From positions 434,001 through 498,000 of the forward strand of contig NZ_CP025116.1 in the NCBI RefSeq assembly GCF_002831625.1: DNA of 64,000 nucleotides. The letters are read 5' to 3'. This document shows positions 9,139 through 26,600 of the stretch, in pieces. Within the stretch, counting starts at the first letter, position 1; each line of letters starts with the position of its first letter. Position numbers and translations under genes: made by a program. Under the pieces are notes generated by a model. It made no database searches, was not told the origin of the DNA, and saw nothing but the letters and a program-made list of their open reading frames with translations. The DNA comes from Nonlabens sp. MB-3u-79. Its GTDB lineage: Bacteria > Bacteroidota > Bacteroidia > Flavobacteriales > Flavobacteriaceae.

Positions 9139-9225
9139 ATTCTATACACGTCTCAAGTTCCATTCCTATAGTTAGTAAAGGAACTAGTTAAAGGTATTCA
9201 ATTTTATTCCAACCGGCGACTGTTT

Positions 9226-11169
9226 TTACAAACCTTCCATTTCAGTGCTTTTTGGCGGACCATCAATTGGCTCATTTTCCTTTTTCAGATAGGTATCTAA
9301 AAACTTTAGAATGCTGCTATAGGCTTCTATTTGATTTTCCTTTTTAACAAAACCATGACCTTCATCTTCAAACAAGACATATTCTACTGGAACACCATTT
9401 TTTCTAACCCCAGCAACAATCTCATCACTCTCTACTTGTAAGACTCTTGGATCTTGAGAACCTTGTAAAACAATTAATGGTTTGGTTACTTTATCGGTAT
9501 GAAATAAAGGCGAGATGCGTTTTAATCTAACAGAATCTACCGAAAAAGGATCCCCCAATTCGAGGTATAAAGATTTTCTTTGGGACTCCCAATAAGGAGG
9601 AATGCTCTTTAATGTTCTTATCCAGTTCGTGACACCAAAAAGGTTGACACCTACATCAAATTCTTCTGGAGTGTAAGTTAATGCCGCCATAGTCATGTAT
9701 CCACCATAAGAACCTCCTATAATACCTATTTTATCGGCGTCAATTGCTGTTTGTGAAGCCAACCAGTTTTTACCTTCTACACAGTCTTGCAAATCTTTTT
9801 CACCGTGATTAAGATCATCCATTTGATAAAATGTTTTTCCGTAACCACTACTACCTCGATTATTAACCGCTAAAACCGCATAACCATGATTGACCATATA
9901 TTGAATAAGTGAATTAAAGCCTTGACGGGTTTGTCCACCAGGACCTCCATGAACCATAACCATTGCGGGCACTTTTTTTTCTGAAGACGCTTGAAGTGGC
10001 AAGTAATAAATCGCAGGGATTTCAACACCATCAAAGGATTTAAAACGAATCACTTTTGCGGTCACTAAATCTTCCACATCTATAGCGTCATTAAGAACAT
10101 CAGTTAGTTGGTACTGTTCTTTAGTTTCTATATTATAGGTATATAAGTCTGATGGCACATTAGAACCGCCAACATACATACGCATCCATTTTTCGTCATT
10201 GCTAAAACCTACACTAGTGATGCTCTTATCTTTAAAATCTGGCAAATCTATAGGCTTCATCGTTTGAGCATCTACAACTTCAATGGCATTTTTACCATCC
10301 TCATTGACATAAACAACCCTATAACTTCCTTCAGAAGTAAAACCACTACCCATGATATCCCATGATTTTTCCAGCACTTTTTGCTTTTCTTGAGAAGCTA
10401 AATCATAAGACATTAAATAGGAGAATTCACTGCCATCATCTGTGGTATAATAGAATTTAGAATTGTCATTGGAAAAATCTTGAAATGAATTTTTACTTTG
10501 GTAGGAATTAATTTTAATCATTTCTTCTGTCTTAACATCATAAAGAAACAAGTCGCTATCATTGGTATTTAAGGATTTTCTCAGTGCAAAATAATTCTCA
10601 TCAGTAGACATTCCTGAAAAGTTGAGCCCACTATCATCTTGATAAATCATTTCAGAAGAAAAGTCATCAATGGACATTTTATACACGTCAAAATATCTTG
10701 GATTCCTTTTGTTAGAGCCAAAATACAAATACTGTTCGTCTTTTGACCAGCCATAAAAACTGGCTTTAGCACCTTTTGCTGGGGTAATATCTGTTACAAC
10801 ACCATCTAAATCTCTAACGAACAGATGGTCTATTTCATCACCATTACCGTCGGCACTCCATAGCATTCTATTGTCATTTGGAAAATAAGATTCTGCTATT
10901 ATGGAGGTGCTGTCTGAAGCTGTAATCGCTGTCATTTCTCCGCCTTTAGCAGGAATAGTATACACATTATTAATTCCAGAACGGTTGCTGGTAATAAGTA
11001 AACTGCTGTTATCTGCTGAAAAACTTCCTCCACCTACAGCTTCATTATCCATGAATTGTTCAATGGTATACTGCTTAATATCTCGATCCACCGTCGCTTT
11101 GTCTGTGGAGTCTTCTTTACAAGAAAAAAGCAGTACCAATAAGCAACATCCTAAAAGCTTTGTTTTCAT
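9226..11169 (-). CDS. S9 family peptidase (prolyl oligopeptidase type), lipoprotein
   Basis: The 647-residue product has a lipoprotein signal (LLGCCLLVLLFSC), an N-terminal WD40/TolB-like beta-propeller (about 30-370) and a C-terminal alpha/beta-hydrolase domain. The catalytic residues are readable: Ser487 in GGSYGGY, Asp573 in GSQDPR and His605 in EDEGHGF. HGGPGG forms the oxyanion region. Such enzymes cut short peptides, often after proline or as acylaminoacyl/dipeptidyl peptidases, and here would act in the periplasm or on the cell surface. It sits next to the RiPP locus on the same strand as the exporter, but 290 nt separate them, so a link to peptide maturation is only possible. Confidence 0.9.
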   Translation of the reverse strand: MKTKLLGCCLLVLLFSCKEDSTDKATVDRDIKQYTIEQFMDNEAVGGGSFSADNSSLLITSNRSGINNVYTIPAKGGEMTAITASDSTSIIAESYFPNDNRMLWSADGNGDEIDHLFVRDLDGVVTDITPAKGAKASFYGWSKDEQYLYFGSNKRNPRYFDVYKMSIDDFSSEMIYQDDSGLNFSGMSTDENYFALRKSLNTNDSDLFLYDVKTEEMIKINSYQSKNSFQDFSNDNSKFYYTTDDGSEFSYLMSYDLASQEKQKVLEKSWDIMGSGFTSEGSYRVVYVNEDGKNAIEVVDAQTMKPIDLPDFKDKSITSVGFSNDEKWMRMYVGGSNVPSDLYTYNIETKEQYQLTDVLNDAIDVEDLVTAKVIRFKSFDGVEIPAIYYLPLQASSEKKVPAMVMVHGGPGGQTRQGFNSLIQYMVNHGYAVLAVNNRGSSGYGKTFYQMDDLNHGEKDLQDCVEGKNWLASQTAIDADKIGIIGGSYGGYMTMAALTYTPEEFDVGVNLFGVTNWIRTLKSIPPYWESQRKSLYLELGDPFSVDSVRLKRISPLFHTDKVTKPLIVLQGSQDPRVLQVESDEIVAGVRKNGVPVEYVLFEDEGHGFVKKENQIEAYSSILKFLDTYLKKENEPIDGPPKSTEMEGL

Positions 11170-11461: not shown

Positions 11462-12775
11462 TCATCCAGTTTCTTCCATTCCAGATCTGGAAAACAATTC
11501 TTTAAACTGGTAAAAGAAGCGTTCCAGAAGTCGCGAGTCTTCGGTAACCGTTTCAGCTACGACCTTGGTTTCTTGATACAGCTTGATTTCATTTTGATAC
11601 GAAGTGATTAAGCTGTCGGACAAGGCTACTTGCACATAGTAAAAACCATTTTTATCAGGCACTTGAGAGATGCTGCTTACTTTTCCTTCTACCACTCCAA
11701 ACTCTGCTTCAGGAAAGTTTTGCAGCTTGAGGTAGGTTTTTTGACCCACTTTCAATTTTCCAGAATTCCATACCGGTGTTTTTAATACTGCGATATAGGA
11801 TTGATACTCTTTTGGAAACACGGTGAATAAAAGGTCGCCTTGTACCACTTGCTGGTTTTCGCTCCAGTTTTGAGTAAAGCCCAACCTGCCCTTTAAAGTC
11901 GCTCTTAAAATGTACAGTTGTTCGTAATTACGCACAGCCTTTTTGAGTTGAGTAAAGGATTGGATCACTGATTTATACAATTGCAACTCTTCTTTGGTAC
12001 GGTTGATTTTAATACCTTCTAGCGAGCTGGAGGTATTGCTCAACTGGTTCCTGAGCTGGGAGATACTCGCATCAACACTTTGATAAGCCCTTCTATTTTG
12101 CGCATATTCCAATTGTTTTAACTCGTACTCTTGGGCCGACACCACTCCTTTTTCAAAAAGTGCTTTGCTGCGATCCAGTTCTTTCTTTTTAAAGTCTAAT
12201 TCTGTTTTTTGTATCCGCTTTCGCGAAAGCGTATTTCTCAACTGCACCTGTAACTGCATTCTAGTAGATCGATTTGCTATAGCATCGTTGTCAAAGGGTT
12301 GCAACTCCTTATTGAGCTGGTACTGCATATAGGCATTTTCAAAAGCAGCAAAAGGCGCTTCAAGGTCACCCAAAAACAGAATGGGCAAACTATCTAAAGG
12401 AAATTGGAAGTACTTTTTATCATAAGACACTGTATCCAGCACCTGTTCTAACCAGAGTACATCTTTATAATTTGCAGCATTTTGAAGCACCGCTAGCAGC
12501 TCGCCAGTTTCAACTTCTTGGTCATTGACCACTAACAAATGTTGAATCATGGAGTTGATCTTGCTGTATTCTTTTTGTGGTGGCACTTGGGTGGTGATGA
12601 TACCTTGTGACACGATAATATCTGGATACTTGACCCACCAAGAAATAAATAAAAGCAGTACGATCAGAATTAAAAACAAGGCGTTCCCATACCTGAGCAT
12701 ACTGCTAGGCACCTTAGTGAGTATTTCCTGTACTTCCTCACTTCGCAATTCTATGTCTTTTAATTGGTCTGGCAT
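11462..12775 (-). CDS. HlyD-family periplasmic adaptor of a peptide exporter
   Basis: About 437 residues from the ATG at 12775, which gives the family N-terminus MPDQLKDIELRSEEVQEIL. A longer frame to 12805 runs into a repeated segment and is unlikely. One membrane helix (YGNALFLILIVLLLFISWWV) is followed by a lipoyl-like half, a long coiled coil (about 180-290, with KRIQKTELDFKKKELDRSK) and a beta-barrel end (LKVGQKTYLKLQNFP). HlyD proteins bridge an inner-membrane ABC exporter to the outer membrane. It lies 3' of the C39 exporter gene on the same strand, so the two form the export unit of the RiPP locus. The palindrome copy at 12218 encodes TLSRKR within the coiled coil. Confidence 0.9.
   Translation of the reverse strand: MPDQLKDIELRSEEVQEILTKVPSSMLRYGNALFLILIVLLLFISWWVKYPDIIVSQGIITTQVPPQKEYSKINSMIQHLLVVNDQEVETGELLAVLQNAANYKDVLWLEQVLDTVSYDKKYFQFPLDSLPILFLGDLEAPFAAFENAYMQYQLNKELQPFDNDAIANRSTRMQLQVQLRNTLSRKRIQKTELDFKKKELDRSKALFEKGVVSAQEYELKQLEYAQNRRAYQSVDASISQLRNQLSNTSSSLEGIKINRTKEELQLYKSVIQSFTQLKKAVRNYEQLYILRATLKGRLGFTQNWSENQQVVQGDLLFTVFPKEYQSYIAVLKTPVWNSGKLKVGQKTYLKLQNFPEAEFGVVEGKVSSISQVPDKNGFYYVQVALSDSLITSYQNEIKLYQETKVVAETVTEDSRLLERFFYQFKELFSRSGMEETG
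12218..12233. repeat. Palindrome CGCTTTCGCGAAAGCG (copy 3)
   Basis: Exact copy inside the HlyD-family gene, read as LSRKR on the minus strand. Confidence 0.9.
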
Positions 12776-12797
12776 ATTAATTTTCCGCGCAAGCGGA

Positions 12798-13065
12798 AAT
12801 CTCATTTAATTTGTCAAGCCGTTTCATAACGGCTTTGCTATATTTTATCTTTATTTTTATTAAAACCGAAACCTTTTCCCCTGCCCTGAAGGGTGAGGTT
12901 TCTACATTGTTATAAATCCATATTCCATATTCTCTAATCGGTATTTAGTATTTAAAAAACCCATCTGTCCTGCGGACATCTTCCCTTTGGGAAGGTTTAG
13001 GGATGGGCTTTAACTTCCTAACTCCAACTGATTCTTAACCAGGTGATAGTAGTCGCCTTTTAAAG
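12798..13065. repeat. Left copy of a ~270-bp direct repeat flanking the exporter gene
   Basis: It is nearly identical to 15501-15775 and covers the spacer 3' of the exporter gene plus its last ~18 codons. Within it, 12957-13013 could fold as a three-armed structure: outer arms CCCATC/GATGGG, with inner hairpins TGTCC/GGACA and CTTCCC/GGGAAG. Read on the minus strand this lies just after the exporter stop and could act as its 3' end structure. Confidence 0.9.
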
Positions 13066-15244
13066 CAATCAAACTTTCATGAGTACCTTGTTCTGCTATT
13101 TTTCCTTGATCTAAAACTACGATTTGATCTGCATTTTTTACGGTACTCAGTCGGTGAGCAATGACCAATACGGTTTTGTTTTTGAAAAAAATGTTGAGTT
13201 TGTCCATGATCACTTTTTCGTTATTGGCGTCTAGTGCGCTGGTAGCCTCGTCAAAAAACAGGAAATCCGGATTTTTATATACTGCTCTAGCTATTAGTAA
13301 ACGTTGTTTCTGTCCTGTACTGAGTCCGATACCTTCCATACCTATTTGGGTGTTGTAGGAAAGCGGTAAGGACTCTATATATTCTTTAATGTTTGCTACG
13401 TCTATGGCGTGTGCTAATTTTTTCTTATCGATATAATCATCCCCCACGGCAATGTTATGAGCAATACTGTCATTAAAAATATAACCTTCTTGCAGGACGA
13501 CACCGCAACTTTCTCGCCAGGCACTTTGCGAGATATTCTTCAAGTTGTGCTGTCCTACTTTAATCTTTCCTTCCAAAGGATCGTAGAATTTGAGCAGCAT
13601 TTTCATTAAAGTGGTTTTACCGCTACCGCTAACCCCAACAATTGCAGTTACTTTATTAGCTGGAATAGTTAGATTCAATTCTTGCAATACCAGCTGTTCA
13701 CTTCCAATATAGCGGTAGGACAAGTTTTCTAAGCTGATGTCTTCATCTGTGGAGTAGTCACTTATTTTTTGAGCCGGATCTGACTCTTCATCTTCTTTAT
13801 TATGGATCTCCCCTAATCGTTCTAAAGAGATTTTGGCATCTTGCCATTCTTTAATAAAACCGATCAATTGCCCTATGGGTGCATTGAGTTGGCCGACTAT
13901 ATAACTGATGGCAAGCATCATCCCTAAAGTAATGTCCCCCGAAATTACCAAAGTAGCCGATAATACTGTAATGATAATATTCTTCAACTCATTAATGAAT
14001 CCAGATCCTACCGACTGGTATTGCTCTAGTGCCAGCCCTTCCACGGCAACTTTATACAATCGAGCTTGTGTAAATTCCCAGTTCCAGCGCTTGCGTTTCT
14101 CTGCATTGTGCAGTTTGATATCTTGCATGCCATTGATGATTTCGATGACCTTGCTTTGCTCCTGACTGACTTGTGCAAAGCGCTTATAATCGAGGTCTTT
14201 GCGTTTCTTTAAAAAAATGACAATCCATAAAAAATACAGCAGGCTACCCAATGCAAATACCCCAAAAATACTAAGGTTGTAATACAGCAACACGATAGAA
14301 AAAACCACCAAATTTACCATAGAAAATAACACGTCTAGTGATGATGTGGTGAGAATACGCTCCACACGCCTATGATCATTGATGCGCTGTAATATATCTC
14401 CTGTTACTCTCGAATCAAAAAAAGCAATAGGCAATTTCATTAACTTGATAAAAAAGTCAGATACGAGTGAAATATTAATTCGCGTGCTGATATGCAACAA
14501 AATCCAACTGCGCACCACCTGAATAGCGGTGCGACCAATAAATAACGCCAATTGAGCAAAAAGCACTAAATAAATAAATGGAACATCTTGGTTTTTAATT
14601 CCTATGTCAACAATGCTTTGGGTTAAGAAAGGAAAGATCAATTGCAATATACTGGCAGCTATCAAGCCTAAAACCAGTTGCCATAAATACTTTTTGTATT
14701 TAAAAACATATCGGGACAGTATGGAGAAACCAAATTCCTTTTTCTCATCCCCAGCATTTTCTTGTTCATATAAAGCAGGCGTAGGCTCTAGTAATAAGGC
14801 GATTCCTTCTTCTGTTTCCCTACTTGCATCTTTACCTATCCAATGGTCTAGGAATTCTCTTTGGGTGTATTTTAAAAGACCGTGTGCTGGGTCTGAGATG
14901 TGGTAAATATTCCCATCTTCCGTCTTCCCAAAGGGAAGAAACTTTTTAGATGCAGACACTTTATAAAGCACCACGTAATGATTCTTATTCCAGTGAAGTA
15001 TACAAGGTAGTGGTGCTTCTTCTAATTTTTGAGCATCGATTTTTACGCCTAAGGATCTAAAGCCTATCGCTTCAGCCGCATTGCTTACACCTTGTAAATT
15101 ACTTCCTGTTCTTATGGTCTCAGAAAGTATTCTTAAGCGTTGTATGTTTATGGATTGTTGATAATGTCTGGCTATGATTTTAAGGCAGGTGGGACCACAG
15201 TCTTTTTGGTCTAATTGTTTATAGTGTGTAAAATTTTTAATCAT
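13010..15244 (-). CDS. Peptidase-containing ABC exporter (PCAT, C39 peptidase + ABC)
   Basis: The 744-residue product has three parts. The N-terminal C39 peptidase has Cys16 in QKDCGPTC, His89 in WNKNHYVV and Asp118 in ISDPAHG, the complete triad. A membrane domain (about 170-480) follows. The ATPase has Walker A GVSGSGKTT (from 537), signature LSTGQKQR and Walker B FLFFDEATSALD. C39 exporters cut leader peptides after a double glycine and export the rest, which fits the Gly-Gly precursor at 21721. Residues about 102-112 (FLPFGKTEDG) are encoded by a segment resembling the intergenic repeat in the flanks. Its 3' end is duplicated upstream at 15719. Confidence 0.95.
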   Translation of the reverse strand: MIKNFTHYKQLDQKDCGPTCLKIIARHYQQSINIQRLRILSETIRTGSNLQGVSNAAEAIGFRSLGVKIDAQKLEEAPLPCILHWNKNHYVVLYKVSASKKFLPFGKTEDGNIYHISDPAHGLLKYTQREFLDHWIGKDASRETEEGIALLLEPTPALYEQENAGDEKKEFGFSILSRYVFKYKKYLWQLVLGLIAASILQLIFPFLTQSIVDIGIKNQDVPFIYLVLFAQLALFIGRTAIQVVRSWILLHISTRINISLVSDFFIKLMKLPIAFFDSRVTGDILQRINDHRRVERILTTSSLDVLFSMVNLVVFSIVLLYYNLSIFGVFALGSLLYFLWIVIFLKKRKDLDYKRFAQVSQEQSKVIEIINGMQDIKLHNAEKRKRWNWEFTQARLYKVAVEGLALEQYQSVGSGFINELKNIIITVLSATLVISGDITLGMMLAISYIVGQLNAPIGQLIGFIKEWQDAKISLERLGEIHNKEDEESDPAQKISDYSTDEDISLENLSYRYIGSEQLVLQELNLTIPANKVTAIVGVSGSGKTTLMKMLLKFYDPLEGKIKVGQHNLKNISQSAWRESCGVVLQEGYIFNDSIAHNIAVGDDYIDKKKLAHAIDVANIKEYIESLPLSYNTQIGMEGIGLSTGQKQRLLIARAVYKNPDFLFFDEATSALDANNEKVIMDKLNIFFKNKTVLVIAHRLSTVKNADQIVVLDQGKIAEQGTHESLIALKGDYYHLVKNQLELGS
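14924..14938. repeat. CTTCCCAAAGGGAAG inverted repeat inside the exporter gene
   Basis: It shares the CTTCCC/GGGAAG arm and the nearby GATGGG with the intergenic repeats at 12980, 15474 and 15690. Here it is read in frame between the C39 catalytic His and Asp. Confidence 0.6.
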
Positions 15245-15280
15245 TTTCTTTAACTAAGTCCTTTAAACCTAAATATTTTA

Positions 15281-15500
15281 TCTCTTTTAATTTGTCAAGC
15301 CGTTGCATAAAGGCGTTGCTATTTTCTATTCCAATTTCAATATTTCTTTACCAATCACCAATCTTGTAACAATGCTTTAGAACCGGCAGTTTCCGCATCA
15401 AGTGCGGAAATTCATGATTTTTACTTACATACTTCTATATTATTTATACAAAACCCATCTGTCCTGCGGACATCTTCCCTAAGGGAAGAGTTTTATTTTT
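15281..15500. repeat. Third, partial copy of the exporter-flanking repeat
   Basis: Two blocks of the direct repeat recur here. One is the TTTAATTTGTCAAGCCGTT block (about 15281-15330). The other is the AAACCCATCTGTCC block with its CTTCCC/GGGAAG hairpin (15449-15490). Between them a TTTCCGC/GCGGAAA inverted repeat (about 15388-15412) matches one at 12781-12799. No gene is present. Confidence 0.7.
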
Positions 15501-15775
15501 AAATCTCTTTTAATTTGTCAAGCCGTTGCATAAAGGCTTTGCTATATTTTATCTTTATTTTTATTTTTATTAAAACCGAAACCTTTTCCCCTGCCCTGAA
15601 GGGTGAGGTTTCTACATTGTTATAAATCCATATTCCATATTCTCTAATCGGTATTTAGTATTTAAAAAACCCATCTGTCCTGCGAACATCTTCCCTAAGG
15701 GAAGGTTTAGGGATGAGCTTTAACTTCCCAACTCCAACTGATTATTAACCAGGTGATAGTAGTCGCCTTTTAAAG
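15501..15775. repeat. Right copy of the ~270-bp direct repeat flanking the exporter gene
   Basis: It aligns with 12798-13065 almost end to end, including the spacer and the start of the exporter's 3' coding end. A TTTTTA step in the T-rich stretch is repeated once more here. Confidence 0.9.
15719..15775 (-). pseudogene. 3' end remnant of a second PCAT exporter gene
   Basis: On the minus strand about 18 codons read LKGDYYHLVNNQLELGS followed by a stop, the same as the last residues of the intact exporter apart from one Lys/Asn change. Nothing else of the gene remains upstream. It shows that the exporter gene, or at least its end, was once duplicated in tandem. Confidence 0.8.
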
Positions 15776-16029
15776 AGCGTAAGCATGCCTCTTCATAACA
15801 GCCAACTTATTATTGTATATCAAGTATTTTAGTTACTTTTATATTGGAATAACATTTATGTTGTTTTGGTTTTAGCGAACCTGTGAGGGCCTTTACTTAG
15901 TAGAGGCTCTTACTTTTTAAAGTTTTTAAGTCGGTGTCAATTAATTTTAATTATTCATAGACATTCTGATAAATCGAAGAACTTATAAGTCCTGGAAAAG
16001 AAAGAGCTCCCCATCTCATCTGCTTTTTT
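15776..16029. other. Spacer, no gene seen
   Basis: A/T-rich sequence between the exporter remnant and the outer-membrane protein gene. An imperfect inverted repeat (GAGGGCCTTTACT with AGTAGAGGCTC) near 15886-15910 could end the minus-strand transcript. No coding potential was seen. Confidence 0.35.
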
Positions 16030-16527
16030 TTATAAATGATACCTTACAAGTACTCCTGCATTCACAATACCTCCCAACGGAATAGCACTATAAGTAGAGA
16101 CTAATCTCAATCCATAGTTCAGTTTGTATGCAGTTCTAAATACTGTCTGAACTCCTAAATCCAATCCAAAACCTTTATTTTTCTCTAGAATTATATCTTC
16201 ACTAAAATGCAAATAAGAGAAGCCCGTGATAGCTTCAAACTTGAAGTTGTCAAAATTCCCAAAAGCGTAGTTTATCTGAAGCCCAAACTTGCCCAAATCA
16301 TAGCTCCTTGAATCTTTGTTATCCATAGCAGCTTGAGATGCTGATACCCCTATTGAAATATCCTGATGAATACGATAGCTAAATTGCCCTCCATAATTCA
16401 ATCCACCATCTTCTCTAACCAATTGCTGATTTAAATGTATATCAACAAAAAATACCGATTGAGAATACGTAGTCACTGCTAACATAAAAGCAACAAGTAA
16501 GGTGGTATAAAATCTGACAGAATTCAT
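16030..16527 (-). CDS. Outer-membrane beta-barrel protein of the RiPP locus
   Basis: 165 residues from the ATG at 16527, which starts directly with a signal peptide (MNSVRFYTTLLVAFMLAVTT ending TYSQ). The longer frame to 16623 has no sensible N-terminus and would run through the palindromic site at 16616. The mature part alternates polar and aromatic residues (YGGQFSYRIHQDISIGVSAS, FGLQINYAFGN, AGVLVRYHL), like a small eight-strand porin-type barrel with a terminal Leu. It is divergent from lanB and shares the intergenic region that contains the candidate operator. It could aid export or protect the producer, but this is inference. Confidence 0.65.
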   Translation of the reverse strand: MNSVRFYTTLLVAFMLAVTTYSQSVFFVDIHLNQQLVREDGGLNYGGQFSYRIHQDISIGVSASQAAMDNKDSRSYDLGKFGLQINYAFGNFDNFKFEAITGFSYLHFSEDIILEKNKGFGLDLGVQTVFRTAYKLNYGLRLVSTYSAIPLGGIVNAGVLVRYHL

Positions 16528-16615
16528 TGATGGTCTGGTTGAGTGTTGGACATTATTACTTTTGTTTATGATTGTAAATGTAAGGGCATGATGCGCTAAT
16601 ATGCAAATTCTTATT

Positions 16616-16637
16616 GTCGACATTCATGAATAACGAG
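16616..16637. promoter_or_regulatory. Candidate operator between the barrel-protein gene and lanB
   Basis: The site GTCGACATTCATGAATAACGAG is nearly the same as the perfect palindrome at 21623-21646 (shared core ATTCATGAATA with flanking CGA). It lies 114 nt before lanB and 89 nt before the divergent barrel-protein gene. The regulator encoded at 19912 is the natural candidate to bind it. Confidence 0.55.
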
Positions 16638-16750
16638 TCTTTTTTAATGATTTTAAAGTACTAAAATCATAAAAAAGGATTAGATGACGTATTAATTAAG
16701 CCAATTTGTTATACATAATGTAATTCTATATATTTGTTAAAATATTCTTA

Positions 16751-18991
16751 ATGAAATTGAGGGAGCCGTATAAAAATAGTTACCAAATCCTAACTCAGTA
16801 TGTTCTGAGAACCCCATTAGCGCCATTTAATTTCTATCAAAACACCCTAAGTAAAGACTTATCATCAGACTCGATTTTTCATCAAGTTCTTAAAAACCCT
16901 GTTCTAAGAGAAGGGATTTACTTGGCTTCACCAGAGTTATATGCTCAGATTATAAAATGGGAAAAAGGCTTTTTAAAAGATGCCAAGAAAATAGAACGAT
17001 TAAAGGTTGCAATTTTAAAATACACTACAAGAATCACGACACGATGCACGCCTTTTGGGCTTTTTGCTTCTTGTTCTTCAGGCAGCTTTGGAGAAGCTAC
17101 TAAAGTTATCTTACAGGATCAAAGTACCTACAAGCGCTGTACAAGATTTGACACCACTTTTCTAGCACAACTCTCTCAGATTTTACTAGAAGATAAAGCA
17201 CTTCAATCAGAATTACTGTTTTACCCTAATACGAGTTTATATAAGATCAACGACCATTACAGGTATGTAGAATACCGTATCCATCATAAGAGAAGATCCT
17301 ATTCTCTTGAAGGCATCATAAAGACCGATGTATTAGAATTGATTATAGCACAAGCACAATCAGGTAAAACCATAAAAGAGCTGGCAATTTTATTAGTAGA
17401 TGAAGATATTAACTTACAAGAAGCTATAGATTTTATAGAACAACTGATCCATCATCAAATACTAGTTTCAGAATTAGAAATCACTCTAACTGGAGAAGAT
17501 TATTTGACCCGTTTAATGGATCGATTAAAGAAATTACCCGCCTCTAAAGGCACTTATAAAAAACTATTAGAACTTCAAAAAAGCTTAAACAGACTGGATC
17601 ATACAATAGGTAATACCATAGAACATTATAAAAAACCTATAAAAATCGCTCAAGAATTAGTGCCAGACCTGGATACCAAATATTTATTCCAGACCGATTG
17701 TTTTTCTATATCACATCACAATAGTTTGAGCAAGGACATAAAAAAACAACTTCACAAAGCCTTCTTATTATTCAATAAATTAACAGTGGCATCTACTGGG
17801 AGGAATTTAGTTGACTTTAAAACTAACTTTACCAAACGTTTTGAAGAGTCAGAAGTCCCCTTGCATCTAGTACTTGATGCAGAAACTGGAATAGGTTATG
17901 GTTCCAAAAAAGAAGACAGCAACTCCATACTAGATGATCTTCAAGTAGGCCATACAAAACCAAAACGCTACCAGCACATAATATGGACCGATATAGATCA
18001 TATAATCCATAAAAAATTGATAACTGCAACCCAGCAAAACAACTATGTTCTTTCATTAAAAGAGGAAGATTTTAAAGACATAACAGTTAATTTCTCCGAT
18101 TTACCAGACACCCTATCTTCTATTATAGAGGTCTATAAGGAAGACCAACTGTTTATAAAAGGAGCTGGAGGTAGTAGTGCTGTGAATTTGTTAGGCAGGT
18201 TTAGTCATGGAACACAAGAATTATTAGATCAGGTACATCATATAGTAGGTATAGAAAAGCAAATCAACAAAGATGCGATACTGGCAGAGATTGTTCATTT
18301 GCCAGAAGCGAGAACAGGTAACATATTACAACGCCCTCGTTTTAGAAATTATGAAATCCCATACTTAGGAAAATCCAGTGTGCCAGAAGAATTTCAAATT
18401 CCCATAGAAGATTTATTCATATCGGTAAAGAATAAAAAGATTGTTTTAAGATCCAAAAGACTCAACAAACAGATCATCCCTAGGTTGGGGAACGCCCATA
18501 ATTACAGTGGTAGTTCTTTACCTATTTATCAGTTTCTCTGTGAGTTGCAAAGTGAAAACAAGCGCTCTTGGATAGGTTTTGAATGGAACGAGATTCATAA
18601 AAATCTGAGCTTTTTACCTAGAGTCACTTGTGAAAATATGATTTTTTCAAAAGCGAGATGGAATATAGAAACAGCCACTTTTAAAGCTATTTTAAAAGAA
18701 CAGGACATCATGAAAGCCATAAGCAAATGGCAATCTTCCTTACAGCTACCAGATCAAGTAGAGCTTATAGAAGGAGATAATAAATTGTTGATCTATTTAA
18801 AGAGCAAAGCTTCTGTAAACATGCTGTTGCATACTGTTAAAAGTAAATCGAATTTTAGACTAGAGGAATTTCTGTTTGAAGAAAAAGCTGTGGTAAATGA
18901 TCAAAAAGGAAACTCCTATTGCAATCAATTTGTAGTATCCTTTTATAATAAGGACCAACTAAAACGAATGGATTATGATGGAGAACATTAA
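16751..18991 (+). CDS. lanB: Lantibiotic dehydratase, N-terminal (glutamylation) half of a split LanB
   Basis: The 746-residue product belongs to the LanB N-terminal family. The best motif is TRCTPFGLFASC (about 97-108), followed by FDTTFLAQLSQILLE. Other family features are GAGGSSAVNLLGRF and LHLVLDAETGIGYG. In class I lanthipeptide synthesis this part transfers glutamate from Glu-tRNA to Ser/Thr of the precursor, before elimination to dehydroamino acids. The C-terminal elimination domain is a separate gene (19083), a split arrangement common in Bacteroidota and thiopeptide systems. The start follows an A/T-rich leader 114 nt after the candidate operator. Symbol used in the generic sense. 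Confidence 0.9.
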   Translation: MKLREPYKNSYQILTQYVLRTPLAPFNFYQNTLSKDLSSDSIFHQVLKNPVLREGIYLASPELYAQIIKWEKGFLKDAKKIERLKVAILKYTTRITTRCTPFGLFASCSSGSFGEATKVILQDQSTYKRCTRFDTTFLAQLSQILLEDKALQSELLFYPNTSLYKINDHYRYVEYRIHHKRRSYSLEGIIKTDVLELIIAQAQSGKTIKELAILLVDEDINLQEAIDFIEQLIHHQILVSELEITLTGEDYLTRLMDRLKKLPASKGTYKKLLELQKSLNRLDHTIGNTIEHYKKPIKIAQELVPDLDTKYLFQTDCFSISHHNSLSKDIKKQLHKAFLLFNKLTVASTGRNLVDFKTNFTKRFEESEVPLHLVLDAETGIGYGSKKEDSNSILDDLQVGHTKPKRYQHIIWTDIDHIIHKKLITATQQNNYVLSLKEEDFKDITVNFSDLPDTLSSIIEVYKEDQLFIKGAGGSSAVNLLGRFSHGTQELLDQVHHIVGIEKQINKDAILAEIVHLPEARTGNILQRPRFRNYEIPYLGKSSVPEEFQIPIEDLFISVKNKKIVLRSKRLNKQIIPRLGNAHNYSGSSLPIYQFLCELQSENKRSWIGFEWNEIHKNLSFLPRVTCENMIFSKARWNIETATFKAILKEQDIMKAISKWQSSLQLPDQVELIEGDNKLLIYLKSKASVNMLLHTVKSKSNFRLEEFLFEEKAVVNDQKGNSYCNQFVVSFYNKDQLKRMDYDGEH

Positions 18992-19003
18992 TTATAACTG
19001 TTC

Positions 19004-19019
19004 CGCTTTCGCGAAAGCG
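19004..19019. repeat. Palindrome CGCTTTCGCGAAAGCG (copy 4)
   Basis: Exact copy in the 91-nt gap between the two LanB genes. It could form a short hairpin in the message but has no T-run. Confidence 0.9.
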
Positions 19020-19082
19020 AAACATCATAAACAATAGAGCATCAAAACTAAAAAAGCAACCCATTTCTTGCACCAGCCTATA

Positions 19083-19925
19083 ATGACAGAAAAAACCGTA
19101 GATAAAACATTTTCAATAGGTACAGAATGGATCTATTACAAAATATACTGCGGTGTAAAAACAGCCGATGAGGTATTGCTACAAGTCATAAAACCAATTT
19201 GCACCAACCTGTTAAAAGATAAATGTATAGATAAATGGTTTTTTATAAGGTATGCTGATCCAGACCCCCATTTAAGACTGAGGTTCCACATCACTTGTGA
19301 AGAAAGCATCTCTAAAATCATACTTATGATGCGTGACTCTTTAGATCTGTATTTAGAGAATAGACAAATATGGGACGTACAACTGGCAACCTATCAAAGA
19401 GAATTAGAGCGGTATGGAACACATACTATGACAAGTGCTGAATCTGTGTTTTTTTATGATAGTGAGCAAGTCCTATGTATGATAGAACAATCTACAAATG
19501 ATGAAGAACGATTGGTGCACGCATTTCATTGGGTAGAAGAACTCATAGGTTTATTCCAATTAGCGGACATAGCGCAAATCGCTTTTTTAGACCGTATGCA
19601 GCTACAGTTTAAAGAGGAGTTTGAAGTAAAAAAACAGACGACTAAACAGTTGAACTTAAAATATAAGAATCTAGAGAAACGCTTGTTCCAGAGCTCTTCC
19701 ATAAGGGCTAAACAGGAGGTATTATTAAGTGCCGTCATAAAAAGCATTCGAGATGCAGAGAAAAATAATCTTTTAGATGTATCTTTAGAAGACTTGATTT
19801 CCAGCTATATACATATGAGCATCAATAGGATTTTTAGATCACAACAACGATTACACGAGATGCTTATCTACAGTTTTCTATACAAAAAACACAAATCTAA
19901 AATGGCAAGGTATGGGAAATTATAA
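19083..19925 (+). CDS. Thiopeptide-type bacteriocin biosynthesis protein (LanB elimination domain)
   Basis: About 280 residues from the ATG at 19083; an in-frame TTG at 19068 is an alternative. The N-terminus GTEWIYYKIYCG and the block FFIRYADPDPHLRLRF are hallmarks of the SpaB C-terminal family, the domain that eliminates glutamate from glutamylated Ser/Thr to form dehydroalanine or dehydrobutyrine. The C-terminus (HMSINRIFRSQQRLHEMLIY) is also typical. It must act with the protein from 16751. The 3' end overlaps the start of the regulator gene by 14 nt, so translation of the two is probably coupled. Confidence 0.9.
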   Translation: MTEKTVDKTFSIGTEWIYYKIYCGVKTADEVLLQVIKPICTNLLKDKCIDKWFFIRYADPDPHLRLRFHITCEESISKIILMMRDSLDLYLENRQIWDVQLATYQRELERYGTHTMTSAESVFFYDSEQVLCMIEQSTNDEERLVHAFHWVEELIGLFQLADIAQIAFLDRMQLQFKEEFEVKKQTTKQLNLKYKNLEKRLFQSSSIRAKQEVLLSAVIKSIRDAEKNNLLDVSLEDLISSYIHMSINRIFRSQQRLHEMLIYSFLYKKHKSKMARYGKL

Positions 19926-21624
19926 TATAACAATTCTAGCGATTTTATGTTTTTGTTGTTCTTTTATAGCCATGGGGCAAAAAGTTGTAGATACTTTGAG
20001 GGATAAAACATATAATGAATTATTTACCCTGATAAACCATGCGAAGAAATTTGAGGAATTTAATTTGCTTTCAGATGCTTTAATTAAAAAAGCAAAAAAT
20101 GAAGATAATACTGAATATTTAATTGGCGGCTATAATGTGAAGGCTTATATATATAATGACTATACAATGATTAAGTACTGTGATAGCATTATTGAGCTCT
20201 CAAAACCTGATATGAAAGACTCATATTTAATGCAAGCATATAAATTAAAAGGAGGTTACTATTTTAACTTAAAGAACTACCCTAAGGCGCTTGATAACTA
20301 CCTGAAAGTTTCTTTTTATGCACAAAAGTTAAACAATTCAAAGTACATTTTTAAATCAAAATATGATTTAGGAATATTAAAAAGAAAAATCAATGAAAAA
20401 GAAGAAGCGTTGAAGCTTTATAAAGAGGTTTATCATTATCACCTTCTAAATAAAAAGACGAATCTGGACACAATAAATTACTTAAGTACGATTACCGCCA
20501 TTGCTAATATTTATAATGATATGCAGCAAGGCGATTCATCATCCTTTTATAATAAGTTAGGAATGAAAGTAGCTGCAAAATACGGTAAGGAATCTTATGT
20601 AAAACACTTCTCTTTAAACGAAGGAGTTTCGCTTTATTATAAAGGACAATTTCCCGCGGCTATAGATAGTCTTGAGAAGCATACACCCTATTATGAAAAT
20701 AAAGAAGACACAAACAATTTACCTTATGCTTATTATTACTCTGGTAAATCACATCAAGAATTGGGTAATGAAAAAGCAGCTATAAGATACCATAAAAAGG
20801 TAGATAGCCTTTTTAAAAAAAATGAAGCGGTATATAATATATCTAGAAAATCCTATGAAGAACTTATTAAGCATTATAGGAAAGAGAAAGACCTAAAAAA
20901 CCAATTATACTATATCAATCAATTGATAAAAGTAGATAGTTTGTTACACGAGGAAGAACTGTATTTAAGTAAAGGAATCTTTAAAGAATATGATATTCCG
21001 CAATTAGAGTCAGAAAAAGAAATGATTCTGCAACAAATGGGCGAAAAGGACTTATTGTTTAAAAAAATAATTCTCGCTTTTACCATCCTACTAGCAATCA
21101 GCTTGATAGTTCTTATCTTTCAGTATTATAAAAAAACGGTCTATAAAAAGAAGTTTGACCAAATAATGACTGGAGTAGAAGATCAAAAACTCACAGAAGT
21201 TAGTGATGACAAAGACAAAGAACTAAACACCGCCAACACTATAGCAGAACTAGAGATCTCTCAAGAGATCATAAATGGCATTCTATTGGGGCTTCAACAA
21301 TTTGAAAATCAACAAAAGTATCTATTACTAAATCTCACCCTTAATTCACTAGCAAAAGAGTTAGAAACGAACAGCAACTACCTATCTAAGGTCATCAACC
21401 ATTATAAAAAACGCTCCTTTTCTAATTATTTAAACTTATTACGCGTCAACTATTTTATTGACTTAGCAAAAAGAGATCCTAACATTAGGAAGTTTACGAT
21501 AAAAGCTATCGCTAACGAAGTAGGCTTTAGCAACTCCGAATCTTTTTCTAAAGCGTTTTATAAGCATAAAGGAATTAAGCCTTCCTATTTCCTTAAAGAG
21601 TTAGAAAACAGCCAACAAACTTAG
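19912..21624 (+). CDS. Membrane-bound TPR / AraC-family transcriptional regulator
   Basis: The 570-residue product has a Sec signal (ITILAILCFCCSFIAMGQ), then about 350 residues of helical TPR-like repeats (YPKALDNYLKVSFYAQKL, EEALKLYKEVYHY, YYYSGKSHQELGNEKAAIRY). One membrane helix follows (KIILAFTILLAISLIVLIF, about 383-401), then a C-terminal AraC DNA-binding domain (about 460-560, KAIANEVGFSNSESFSKAFYKHKG). The layout places a sensor in the periplasm and the DNA-binding domain in the cytoplasm, as in other Bacteroidota one-protein regulators. Its own 3' end carries the palindrome at 21623. It probably controls the precursor and the lanB operon, perhaps by sensing the product; this is inferred from position. 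Confidence 0.85.
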   Translation: MGNYNITILAILCFCCSFIAMGQKVVDTLRDKTYNELFTLINHAKKFEEFNLLSDALIKKAKNEDNTEYLIGGYNVKAYIYNDYTMIKYCDSIIELSKPDMKDSYLMQAYKLKGGYYFNLKNYPKALDNYLKVSFYAQKLNNSKYIFKSKYDLGILKRKINEKEEALKLYKEVYHYHLLNKKTNLDTINYLSTITAIANIYNDMQQGDSSSFYNKLGMKVAAKYGKESYVKHFSLNEGVSLYYKGQFPAAIDSLEKHTPYYENKEDTNNLPYAYYYSGKSHQELGNEKAAIRYHKKVDSLFKKNEAVYNISRKSYEELIKHYRKEKDLKNQLYYINQLIKVDSLLHEEELYLSKGIFKEYDIPQLESEKEMILQQMGEKDLLFKKIILAFTILLAISLIVLIFQYYKKTVYKKKFDQIMTGVEDQKLTEVSDDKDKELNTANTIAELEISQEIINGILLGLQQFENQQKYLLLNLTLNSLAKELETNSNYLSKVINHYKKRSFSNYLNLLRVNYFIDLAKRDPNIRKFTIKAIANEVGFSNSESFSKAFYKHKGIKPSYFLKELENSQQT

Positions 21625-21646
21625 TCGATATTCATGAATATCGACT
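21623..21646. promoter_or_regulatory. Perfect 24-bp palindrome upstream of the precursor gene
   Basis: The half-sites are AGTCGATATTCA and TGAATATCGACT, with no spacer. It begins in the stop codon of the AraC-type gene and ends 74 nt before the precursor start. Its match with 16616-16637 supports an operator role over a terminator, since no T-run follows. A further half-site TAATATCGAG lies at about 21646-21655. Confidence 0.6.
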
Positions 21647-21720
21647 AATATCGAGGTTTTAGTTTATAAATACCATCTTTTATTATGTTCATTTGTATGA
21701 ATCATTTAAATACCTACATC

Positions 21721-21912
21721 ATGAAAAAAAGTAAATTAAGTATCCGAAAGTTTAAAATTGCTACCTTGAACGATCCTTCAAAAATAATGGGAGGAACAGG
21801 AACAGGTGCTGACGATGGAGGCACAAATACAGGTAATACCAATGATGGAAAAGAAAGGTGTTTGTTAACATCACTCATAAAAATGCCTGACAATTCAATT
21901 GTAAAAAGTTGA
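21721..21912 (+). CDS. Class I lanthipeptide-like precursor peptide with Gly-Gly leader
   Basis: 63 residues from the ATG at 21721; a longer frame from 21685 lacks leader character. The leader (1-25), KKSKLSIRKFKIATLNDPSK then IMGG, matches the Bacteroidota GG-leader type (basic start, L-I-K-F-x-I-A-x-L). The predicted core (26-63) begins TGTGADDGGTNTGNTNDG and has eight Thr/Ser but only one Cys (Cys47, in KERCLLTS). At most one lanthionine ring could form; other dehydrated residues would remain open or react otherwise. It stands directly after the regulator and palindrome and before a hairpin, so it may be made in excess over the downstream protease. The call is firm from context; the product structure is unknown. 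Confidence 0.85.
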   Translation: MKKSKLSIRKFKIATLNDPSKIMGGTGTGADDGGTNTGNTNDGKERCLLTSLIKMPDNSIVKS

Positions 21913-21935
21913 ATTTTTAAATTGAAATATTAAAA

Positions 21936-21959
21936 AACACGCCTTGTTAAAGGCGTGTT
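21936..21959 (+). terminator. Hairpin between precursor and protease (terminator or attenuator)
   Basis: The stem AACACGCCTT / AAGGCGTGTT with loop GTTA lies 24 nt after the precursor stop. It is followed by ATTACC, not a T-run, so partial read-through into the S8 gene is likely. Confidence 0.65.
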
Positions 21960-21993
21960 ATTACCAATAATTATATTAGCAAATACCTGTATT

Positions 21994-23637
21994 ATGAAAG
22001 ATAATTTAGTTTTCGTTTTAATCTTAATAATTAGTGTCTCTTGTAAAACAAAACAAACGTTTGAACCAGTGCATAGTCCTGTAATTAACATACAGGAAAT
22101 AAAATTAGATGATTTCAAAAACTGGCACTTTAAAGACCTACAATTAGATACGGTTCCAGGTATAAGTTTAAATAGAGCTTATGACAGTCTTTTAACCAAA
22201 GACAGAAAGGATCATAAAACAATAGTAGCTGTAATTGACAATGAAACAGATATCAATCATAAGGATCTAGCTCACCAAATATGGGTCAACAAAAAGGAAA
22301 TTGCAGATAATCAAATTGACGATGATAATAATGGTTATGTTGATGATATCCATGGATGGAATTTCCTAGGGAATGCTCAAGGTGAAAACAATAAATATGT
22401 CAATTTTGAATCTACTAGAATTCTAAGAAAATTAACTCCTTACTTTAAGGATAAAGACACAACAAATCTTAATCCCAATGACGCTAAACTTTTTTCATAT
22501 TATCAAAAGGTTAAAAAAAGACATGAGGTGAGATTAAAATATTTTTTAGCAGAGAAAGACAATTACGATCGCTTATATGATTTTTATTTTGCTGCTGTAA
22601 AAGAAATAGCTCCCTATTTTAAGAATAGACCTTATACTTTAGAGGCTATAGATAGTTTAAAGCAATCTAAATCAACCAATATTGATGACTTCCATTTTCT
22701 TGTCATGACAGATTGTTTAAAAAATAATATTGACGATTCGTTGGTTCTAAAAGAAAAAAAACATGCCACCAATATGGTTGAAAAATTATTGGTCATAGAA
22801 TACAATGACCGTGAAATTCAAGGTGATAATCCTGATGACATTACGGATACTATTTATGGCAACAACTTGATGAGCAACAATGTTGAGTTTTTAAATCACG
22901 GCACCAAAATGTCTGGTATCATCACTGGAATTTCTAGAAACAATGAAGTTGAAATTATGCCTTTAGCTATTTCGGCCTATGGCGACGAACATGACAAGGA
23001 TATTGCTCTGTCGATCAGATATGCTGTAGATAACGGGGCTAAGGTTATAAACATGAGCTTTTGGAAAGAATTCTCTCTGTATGAAAATTGGGTTCTAGAT
23101 GCTATAAAATATGCCGATCAAAATGATGTTCTTATAATCTCCATTGCCGGTAATGACGGCCTTAATTTAAATCAAAATGTAAAATATCCTAACGATAAAT
23201 TAACTGATGGCACCGAGGTTTCTGATAATTTTATTCTGGTAGGAGCAAGTAACCATAACCTCAATAAAGGATTTGTACCTGGCTATTCCAATTACGGGAC
23301 CATAGATGTAGACCTATTTGCTCCTGGAAATGAAATTTACACAACTTCTCCTAATAATACATATGTAAATAATTCGGGAGGCACATCGTCATCAGCAGCA
23401 GTCACGTCTGGAGTAGCCGCATTGATACGTTCTTATTACCCTGACCTTACCGCATCAGAGGTCAAGCACATTCTTATGGATTCTGGTGTAGAATATACCC
23501 TTGAGGTTGCCACACCTACTGAAGAAGATCCAGAAAAAACCACCCCTTTTAATCAGCTGTCTAAATCTGGTAAAGTACTTAATGCTTATAACGCATTGCT
23601 TATGGCAGAGCGTATTTCTAAAGGGAAGAGGAAATAA
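21994..23637 (+). CDS. Subtilisin-like (S8) serine peptidase lipoprotein, likely RiPP maturation
   Basis: 547 residues from the ATG at 21994, which gives a lipoprotein signal ending IISVSC; the upstream GTG at 21955 overlaps the hairpin and is rejected. The triad is readable: Asp82 (VAVIDNETD), His302 (LNHGTKMSG) and Ser465 (SGGTSSSAAV), with Asn387 (AGND) for the oxyanion hole. About 220 residues between Asp and His include a helical insertion common in Bacteroidota S8 enzymes. Placed next to the precursor it may remove remaining leader residues or trim the product outside the inner membrane. Its 3' end, about 130 bp, is repeated at 26352 and 32068. Confidence 0.88.
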   Translation: MKDNLVFVLILIISVSCKTKQTFEPVHSPVINIQEIKLDDFKNWHFKDLQLDTVPGISLNRAYDSLLTKDRKDHKTIVAVIDNETDINHKDLAHQIWVNKKEIADNQIDDDNNGYVDDIHGWNFLGNAQGENNKYVNFESTRILRKLTPYFKDKDTTNLNPNDAKLFSYYQKVKKRHEVRLKYFLAEKDNYDRLYDFYFAAVKEIAPYFKNRPYTLEAIDSLKQSKSTNIDDFHFLVMTDCLKNNIDDSLVLKEKKHATNMVEKLLVIEYNDREIQGDNPDDITDTIYGNNLMSNNVEFLNHGTKMSGIITGISRNNEVEIMPLAISAYGDEHDKDIALSIRYAVDNGAKVINMSFWKEFSLYENWVLDAIKYADQNDVLIISIAGNDGLNLNQNVKYPNDKLTDGTEVSDNFILVGASNHNLNKGFVPGYSNYGTIDVDLFAPGNEIYTTSPNNTYVNNSGGTSSSAAVTSGVAALIRSYYPDLTASEVKHILMDSGVEYTLEVATPTEEDPEKTTPFNQLSKSGKVLNAYNALLMAERISKGKRK

Positions 23638-23654
23638 AAATACGCTCAATAACG

Positions 23655-23790
23655 GTCCCTTTCAGAAGATTGCTGCGTTGCACTCGCAATGACGGTCCTT
23701 TCAGGAGATTGCCGCGTTGCACTGGCCTCGCAATGGCAGTTGATTGGGTCATTGCGAGGTACTTTCGCCGAAGCAATCTCTTGCTTGTGC
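23655..23790. repeat. GCGTTGCACT..GCAATGAC and CATTGCGAG repeats after the S8 gene
   Basis: Two tandem units of a TTTCAGAAGATTGCTGCGTT-type repeat are followed by CATTGCGAGG..GAAGCAATCT. The last part overlaps the 3' end of the GIY-YIG gene. Similar units follow the two S8 fragments at 26505 and 32206. Confidence 0.75.
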
Positions 23791-24066
23791 AGTTAAATCG
23801 CTCCATGCGCTATTCTCCTTCTCTATTAATGCTATTTTCTTGGCTCTACTGCCTGCTTTTAATTGTTTCTCTCTTCCAATGGCATCTCCTATCATTTGAA
23901 AGGCTTCATAGTACACCAACTTGTCTAAATTATACCTCGCTGTAAATGATTTTTTATGGTGTTTCTCTTTATGTTGTTGAATGCGCTGCGTTAAATTACT
24001 AGTGATACCTACATACAATGTGGTATTATTTTTATTAGTGAGTATGTAGATATAGCCAGGTTTCAT
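23749..24066 (-). CDS. GIY-YIG nuclease family protein
   Basis: The 105-residue product contains a complete small GIY-YIG domain: GYIYILTNKNNTTLYVGITS, then the Arg helix NLTQRIQQHKEKHH, LVYYEAF, and GREKQLKAGSRAKK with the catalytic Glu. Single-domain proteins of this type are common in Bacteroidota; their role in repair or mobility is not settled. The last ~20 codons (TAQARDCFGESTSQ) are encoded by the dispersed CATTGCGAG repeat, and another copy of the repeat lies just upstream (24077). That placement resembles repeat-associated nucleases. Confidence 0.85.
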   Translation of the reverse strand: MKPGYIYILTNKNNTTLYVGITSNLTQRIQQHKEKHHKKSFTARYNLDKLVYYEAFQMIGDAIGREKQLKAGSRAKKIALIEKENSAWSDLTAQARDCFGESTSQ

Positions 24067-26351: not shown

Positions 26352-26492
26352 GATTGTTGGGTAACAACACCCACTAAAGAAGATCCTGAAAAAACCACCC
26401 CTTTTAATCAGCTGTCCAAATCTGGTAAAGTGCTCAATGCTTATAACGCATTGCTTATGGCAGAGCGTATTTCTAAAGGGAAGAGGAAATAA
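26352..26492 (+). pseudogene. Duplicated 3' end of the S8 peptidase gene (copy 1)
   Basis: The last ~40 codons of the S8 gene recur (KEDPEKTTPFNQLSKSGKVL through AERISKGKRK, stop), nearly identical to 23508-23637. Upstream homology ends at once and is replaced by a TTACGGT/ACCGTAA palindrome segment (26320-26345). It is a fragment and not expressed as a peptidase. Confidence 0.85.
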
Positions 26493-26504
26493 AAATACGC
26501 GCAA

Positions 26505-26600
26505 TAACGATCCCTTTCAGGAGATTGCTGCGTTGCACTGGCAATGACGGTTGCTTTCAGGAGATTGCTGCGTTGCACTCGCAATGACTATACAAACAGT
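26505..26600. repeat. Two GATTGCTGCGTTGCACT..GCAATGAC units after S8 fragment 1
   Basis: The same tandem units as after the intact S8 gene; the duplicated block therefore covers the gene end plus its downstream repeats. Confidence 0.8.

Follow-up and report, generated by a model that had tools for sequence, protein, structure and literature searches.

Class I lanthipeptides of Bacteroidota with a split LanB dehydratase, LxLxKx5L leaders, a Gly-Gly cleavage site and a C39 peptidase have been described (PMC7268733, in excerpt), and ChmABC from Chryseobacterium and RuiABC from Runella were produced in E. coli together with a LanC (PMC9993889, in excerpt). Nonlabens sp. MB-3u-79 carries a related locus, which we analyzed in a 64,000-nucleotide stretch (bases 434001-498000 of a genome that comprises one contig of 3,184,776 bases, or 3.18 Mb); this whole stretch is the window, and its own numbering is used below. 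The locus shares with the pinensins, ChmABC and RuiABC a LanB (split in pinensin), a leader of the LxLxKx5L type, the Gly-Gly site and, as in many of them, the C39 peptidase (PMC7268733 and PMC9993889, both in excerpt). ChmABC and RuiABC were expressed with LanC, whereas the window locus has none (PMC9993889, in excerpt). Judged by its genes, it is predicted to act like a class I dehydratase system, yet it lacks the cyclase that would place it among the class I lanthipeptides. We consider it likely that the locus is a LanC-independent cassette for a dehydrated, ribosomally synthesized and post-translationally modified peptide (RiPP), placed under its own regulator.

The PF05147 profile of LanC found no match in the complete genome, and one of 14 control genomes (Deinobacterium chartae) was positive. 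The initial annotation had noticed that LanC was missing from the window; as far as PF05147 can detect, the absence extends to the whole genome, and the second reading offered there, a LanC encoded elsewhere, was rejected on the same search. LanB-N, the glutamylation half of LanB, matched PF04738 once in the genome, at the window locus. PF05147 also had no match in the two further genomes of this genus (G010 and G242) within a 299-genome sample of the family. In that sample, 25 genomes contained LanB-N and 14 contained LanC; LanC accompanied LanB-N in 12 of the 25 and was absent from 13, one of which (G276) holds only a fragment near a contig end. A 395-genome sample of Flavobacteriales, overlapping with the first in several genomes, gave LanB-N in 58 genomes and LanC in 35, and the 58 divided into 29 with and 29 without a LanC match at E ≤ 1e-3, a rule under which G652 counts as positive with a match below the family cut-off. 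Since half of the LanB-N genomes sampled from the order also have no LanC match, the window locus is not a lone loss, and an accident confined to it was rejected. In five of the 29 LanC-less genomes (G456, G467, G484, G635, G680), the single LanB-N match lay in a frame some 980-1050 residues long, which suggests a fused LanB, and one (G551) had only pieces of LanB-N. Among 23 genomes sampled from the genus, LanB-N was present in four, one copy being a remnant interrupted by a stop (locus L081 of Nonlabens genome G308, 9150-9386).

Both halves of the dehydratase look intact. LanB-N, predicted to perform the glutamyl-tRNA-dependent glutamylation of Ser and Thr (16751..18991, plus strand), covers positions 2-649 of the 649 in PF04738 (463 bits, E 1.7e-138). 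LanB-C, the glutamate elimination half (19083..19925, plus strand, with a possible alternative TTG start upstream at 19068), covers positions 1-253 of the 255 in PF14028 (220 bits, E 7e-65). We compared the surroundings of LanB-N genes in stretches of about 12-20 kb, annotated by similarity to the window proteins. With LanC required within 3 kb, LanB-N stood without an adjoining LanC in 48 loci and with one in 18, and three further loci lacked a large LanB-N match; within the 48, L066 and L129-L141 come from genomes with a LanC match elsewhere, and L077 and L080 from genomes not covered by the LanC search. LanB-N and LanB-C were aligned to NisB, with NisB numbers counted from the printed PDB alignment, at positions which we take to be catalytic in the roles usually assigned to them. 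The R14 region, R83, R87, D121, R464, R784, R786, E823, R826 and H961 were kept in 48/48 LanC-less and 17/17 LanC rows; T89 was kept in 44/48 and D298/299 in 45/48 of the former vs 17/17 of the latter. The window LanB-C itself retains the positions aligned with R784, R786, E823, R826 and H961. The glutamylation and elimination domains typical of class I lanthipeptide systems are thus present with their key residues, and because they are intact we expect the core peptide to be dehydrated.

When 65 split LanB-N sequences were placed in a tree, all 17 LanC-adjacent rows and L066 formed one clade (SH-aLRT 99), and the window LanB-N fell outside it. That tree left out the full-length LanBs of L059, which has no LanC, and L064, which adjoins one. 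A more careful tree of 24 sequences again grouped ten LanC-adjacent rows with L066 (support 100/99) and placed the full-length L064 far outside on a long branch; the clade is therefore claimed for split LanBs only.

The conserved cassette consists of a membrane regulator with TPR and AraC domains, a Thr-rich Gly-Gly precursor, an exported serine peptidase, LanB-N and LanB-C. The precursor gene of the window (21721..21912, plus strand) most likely encodes 63 residues, with a leader of 25 (21721-21795) and a core of 38 (21796-21909); the Gly-Gly peptide of the initial annotation was confirmed, and its start was revised to 21721. The core contains nine Ser/Thr and one Cys, and the leader ends in Gly-Gly, which together with the nearby C39 exporter completes the usual arrangement for Gly-Gly leader export. 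A profile built from 26 seeds taken from regulator-adjacent gaps was searched against the short open reading frames (ORFs) of all loci. The leaders show the motif K-(L/F)-x-(L/I)-x-K-x-x-(I/V)-x-x-(L/I), usually continued by I-x-GG, the gene adjoins the regulator, and both Gly of the Gly-Gly site were invariant in 21 aligned precursors. The curated lanthipeptide leader model NF038153 scored the window precursor at 16.0 bits, below its cut-off of 22; four of five other LanC-less precursors scored 10.5-19.4 bits and one was unlisted, and two LanC-adjacent precursors passed (26.5 and 31.9 bits).

LanC-less loci yielded 40 precursors with 39 distinct cores, of which 14 had no Cys, 22 had one and three had two, whereas 17 distinct cores from LanC-adjacent genes had two to seven (Mann-Whitney p about 1e-9, the rows not being independent). 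Six regulator-adjacent precursors from LanC loci (2, 1, 4, 1, 1 and 1 Cys) stand outside both counts, and when the ten precursors from genomes with LanC elsewhere are omitted, 9/30 are Cys-free. Searched with a profile, a set of 5.8 billion proteins yielded 73 related ones, including the window precursor and several query rows; Cys-free cores made up 46 of the 73, and every core had at least two Ser/Thr. Where NCBI gives these relatives a name it is hypothetical protein, and a few carry the UniRef name Natural product or Bacteriocin. The proportion of Cys-free cores is 36-63%, depending on the sample; most of the others have one Cys, in many cases spaced from a Ser/Thr as a ring would require. 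We pooled the database relatives with all regulator-adjacent precursors, LanC loci included, and reduced the 119 cores to 78 that are less than 70% alike. These contained 14.1% Thr (5.2% in ORFs of at least 300 residues), 4.7% Ser (7.0%) and 2.4% Cys vs 0.7%, i.e., no overall depletion of Cys; 35 cores had no Cys, 35 had one and eight had two to four. In L070, a LanC locus, two TPR/AraC regulators are each followed by their own precursor gene (13918-14160 and 16116-16355), with one and four Cys. The window-type family has 0-2 Cys in its cores and the LanC-adjacent cores 2-7; the exported peptidase after the precursor and the TPR/AraC regulator further distinguish the window locus from the described class I lanthipeptides of Bacteroidota.

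The initial annotation had suggested a dehydroamino-acid peptide without enzymatic rings. This agrees with the LanC-less cassette in 40 loci, the retained dehydratase residues and the Cys-free cores (14/39). The window core itself has a single Cys that is kept by its closest relatives, so one thioether closed without LanC is possible; to the extent that the product is taken to be linear, this weighs against our interpretation. The best-surviving alternative is a peptide with a single lanthionine, in which LanB dehydrates the core and the only Cys closes one thioether without LanC, either spontaneously or inside the LanB complex; in the window the ring would join the Cys to the Thr or Ser located three or four residues later. 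In the 35 one-Cys cores, Ser/Thr were in excess at -4, -3, +4 and +7 from the Cys, so the spacing is not random, and the Ser at +4, next to a Thr at +3 in the window core, is kept in four near relatives (P0122, P0123, P0135 and P0142) and in P0130 from Nonlabens xiamenensis. Because of this spacing and the conserved Ser, the Cys-bearing half of the cores may each carry one thioether. Against a lanthionine as the general product stand the 35 of 78 non-redundant cores that share this cassette and have no Cys, the core of L051 from the same genus, which keeps the Cys with no Ser/Thr at +4, and the design of the spacing test, which covered 18 offsets and related cores. Most known lanthionine rings, moreover, have the acceptor before the Cys, and the order in the window is the reverse. 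We regard this alternative as possible, though clearly less probable than the dehydropeptide cassette.

The proposed LanC-independent dehydropeptide cassette also includes a peptidase in a fixed position. In 39/39 LanC-less loci where the contig continues, the next same-strand gene of at least 200 residues after the precursor encodes a serine peptidase, of family S9 in 16, S8 in 15 and S15 in eight, as classed by similarity to Pfam-named representatives; the contig of L051, the 40th LanC-less locus with a precursor, ends before this slot. In L132 and L137, with no assigned precursor, an S9-like gene (recognized by eye from the N-terminus) directly precedes LanB-N. The window enzyme is an S8 subtilase lipoprotein (21994..23637, plus strand; PF00082, 111.5 bits) with about 220 residues between the Asp and His of the triad; the lipoprotein had been annotated correctly apart from its start, moved from 21955 to most likely 21994 on the basis of a Cys lipobox recognized by eye. 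The catalytic triad is present in 14/15 cassette S8 proteins. Judged by eye, a lipobox-like N-terminus occurs in 15/15, and the N-termini of the S9 and S15 proteins look signal-like. Parsimony on the LanB-N tree gives eight changes of the peptidase family, with one well-supported swap (L124 within an S8 clade). Since three families hold the slot, it points less to one particular enzyme than to a required step in which the exported peptide would be trimmed, activated or removed. The proline content of the cores showed no apparent split between S8 and S9 loci when judged by eye without counting. In L145, L146 and L147, a regulator, a one-Cys precursor and an S9 gene lie near a LanC-type cluster, and the fetched stretch shows no separate LanB for them; the unit of regulator, precursor and S9 peptidase thus appears modular, and a neighboring LanB possibly serves it.

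Among known RiPP macrocyclases, PatG belongs to S8 and POPB and PCY1 belong to S9. The peptidase could accordingly be a macrocyclase that makes a head-to-tail cyclic dehydropeptide, as both of these families occupy the same slot. Nevertheless, the slot is also held by S15 enzymes, which to our knowledge are not known as macrocyclases, the cores showed no shared recognition sequence by eye, and trimming or degradation is a simpler role; we find cyclization by the peptidase unlikely. Similarly unlikely is the idea of decay, by which a former class I lanthipeptide locus would have lost LanC and be disappearing. Decayed cases do exist: a LanB-N copy of Nonlabens G308 is reduced to a remnant broken by a stop, the C39 exporter is in pieces in L058 (11246-11951), where the cassette otherwise looks intact, and the S8 gene of L052 is truncated, with a C39 fragment lying in between. 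Nonetheless, dozens of LanC-less loci retain intact genes and residues; they have their own precursor family, regulator and operator and are separate from the LanC clade, which makes this reading improbable.

A pyritide- or thiopeptide-like macrocycle formed from the dehydrated residues is the least probable of these alternatives, and we give it very little weight. Pyritides use a further Lant_dehydr_C-type protein as pyridine synthase. Like the Cys-free members of the cassette family, pyritide loci have a truncated LanB, no LanC and a Cys-free precursor, the same combination that led to their discovery (PMC11002830, in excerpt). The only Lant_dehydr_C protein of the window locus, by contrast, keeps the elimination residues, and the cores prefer Thr over Ser. 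Among 23 cassette genomes, Nonlabens included (22 without a LanC match and G318, which lay outside the LanC search), we found no second Lant_dehydr_C: each LanB-N had one PF14028 match, and the three genomes with two Lant_dehydr_C (G424, G507 and G578) also had two LanB-N. YcaO was found in 0/23 of the same genomes and in 5/14 control genomes. On these two absences, which disfavor pyritide, thiopeptide and azole pathways, the pyritide reading and the thiopeptide, goadsporin or azole readings were both rejected at the level of sequence. Goadsporin, thiopeptides and dehydrazoles resemble the expected product in their dehydrated residues, and the first two in a split LanB (PMC10676384, in excerpt); all of them need azole formation by YcaO, and the dehydratase of dehydrazoles is of the LanM type. 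Pearlin pathways likewise combine a LanB homologue with the absence of LanC (PMC11002830, in excerpt). Their enzymes, the PEARLs, are short LanBs whose sole domain is glutamylation-like, and they append an amino acid at the C-terminus, whereas the window locus encodes an adjacent LanB-C with elimination residues, on which ground this reading was rejected as well.

The regulator (19912..21624, plus strand) has an N-terminal hydrophobic stretch, a TPR domain predicted to be periplasmic, one predicted membrane helix (386-404) and an AraC DNA-binding domain; it is the sole match of its kind in the genome at E ≤ 1e-3. A membrane AraC regulator had been proposed initially and is borne out, but the TPR domain before the helix had been overlooked. 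A perfect palindromic, operator-like site (21624..21645) lies between the regulator and precursor genes and an imperfect copy with three mismatches (16616..16637) between the barrel and LanB-N genes; at up to three mismatches, the whole genome contains no further places. Between the precursor and S8 genes lies a hairpin (21936..21959; z -3.35, none of 200 shuffles as stable), followed on the opposite strand by a T run. It possibly limits read-through into the peptidase gene, and it may also be a terminator on the opposite strand or a stabilizer of the precursor transcript. A scan for sigma-70 promoters was uninformative (38 matches vs 38.7 expected).

All eight elements of the initial annotation are present where it had placed them, as judged from Pfam and TIGR profiles and from reading the sequence. 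On the minus strand lie the HlyD-family periplasmic adaptor of the exporter (11462..12805; HlyD_3 39.4 bits, TIGR01843 99.6 bits, below the cut-off of 208.65) and the C39 peptidase/ABC exporter (13010..15244; Peptidase_C39 PF03412 97.7 bits, with the membrane and ATPase domains PF00664 and PF00005), which is expected to cleave at Gly-Gly and export the peptide. Its full Cys, His and Asp triad was recovered by eye and not from an alignment. In L051-L055 and L120 as well, the C39 exporter has a HlyD homologue beside it. A small beta-barrel-like outer-membrane protein with a signal peptide (16030..16527, minus strand) is divergent from lanB; the gene is in place as annotated, but its OMP_b-brl score of 17.6 bits is below the cut-off of 28.7. 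A barrel homologue in another Nonlabens locus passes with 30.1 bits, and homologues of the window protein occur in Nonlabens locus L080. The S9 peptidase at 9226-11169 was dropped as a cassette member because a cysteine desulfurase-like gene (identified by eye) replaces it beyond HlyD in L051. The end of the S8 gene lies in a 192-nt direct repeat, 93% identical (23505-23696 and 26360-26551), so that its 3′ end is copied 2.86 kb downstream; between the copies are a GIY-YIG gene (23749-24066) and a gene (24270-26114) whose 614-residue product has no convincing family match, and the arrangement looks like an insertion or duplication. The 16-nt palindrome CGCTTTCGCGAAAGCG occurs five times in the window (2165, 12216, 19004, 33666 and 58867; 0 in 100 shuffles) and in 427 dispersed copies genome-wide, with none for the reversed control. 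In L053, L055 and L056, grasp-with-spasm-like genes (an ATP-grasp ligase and a SPASM-type maturase) separate the LanB cassette from the C39 exporter, which may therefore serve two RiPP systems; SPASM_w_grasp scored 140 bits in L053, below its cut-off of 175, and L055 and L056 were named by similarity to L053.

As we picture the pathway, the TPR/AraC protein would be a membrane receptor-regulator that binds the palindromes before the precursor and lanB and controls both transcripts. The leader (LxLxKFxIxxL...GG) would guide LanB-N, which would glutamylate Thr and Ser of the core from Glu-tRNA, and LanB-C would then eliminate glutamate, giving mainly dehydrobutyrine. With no candidate for a cyclase, YcaO or pyridine synthase downstream in the pathway, the product would be a linear dehydropeptide or, with one Cys, a peptide with a single thioether formed without LanC. 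The C39/HlyD pair presumably cleaves at Gly-Gly and exports the core, which the lipoprotein serine peptidase (S9 or S15 in relatives) may trim or destroy, either at the outer membrane or within the periplasm. The TPR receptor probably has the final peptide as its ligand, which would make a self-contained signaling or self-sensing circuit; this is the weakest step. Peptide receptors of the RRNPP family, such as Rap and NprR, are cytoplasmic. The window regulator is not expected to be soluble and cytoplasmic like these receptors: from helix 386-404 and the N-terminal hydrophobic stretch, we predict a membrane-spanning protein whose TPR domain faces outward and whose AraC domain faces the cytoplasm.

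Among the titles and abstract openings listed by our searches of open-licence PMC papers, we saw no comparable cassette with a split LanB and no LanC. We only tentatively extend the proposal to an unnamed, widespread RiPP class of Flavobacteriales, comprising Thr-rich and often Cys-free dehydrobutyrine peptides made by split LanB alone, with maturation by an exchangeable, exported S8, S9 or S15 serine peptidase and readback by a membrane-spanning TPR/AraC receptor through a dedicated palindromic operator. One mining study limited the distance between LanC and precursor to seven genes (PMC7268733, in excerpt). Lanthipeptide searches anchored on LanC would overlook such loci, although LanC gave no match in 29 of the 58 sampled Flavobacteriales genomes with LanB-N. 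Members with Cys-free cores offer a natural way to ask what purpose class I dehydration serves where a thioether is impossible, and the one-Cys members would test whether a ring can close in the absence of LanC. Together, the regulator, operator and peptidase provide a concrete, genetically testable signaling hypothesis in a phylum whose peptide signals are, in our judgement, little known. If the proposed class is real, it would mean a modified-peptide pheromone circuit in Gram-negative bacteria, a counterpart of RRNPP signaling.

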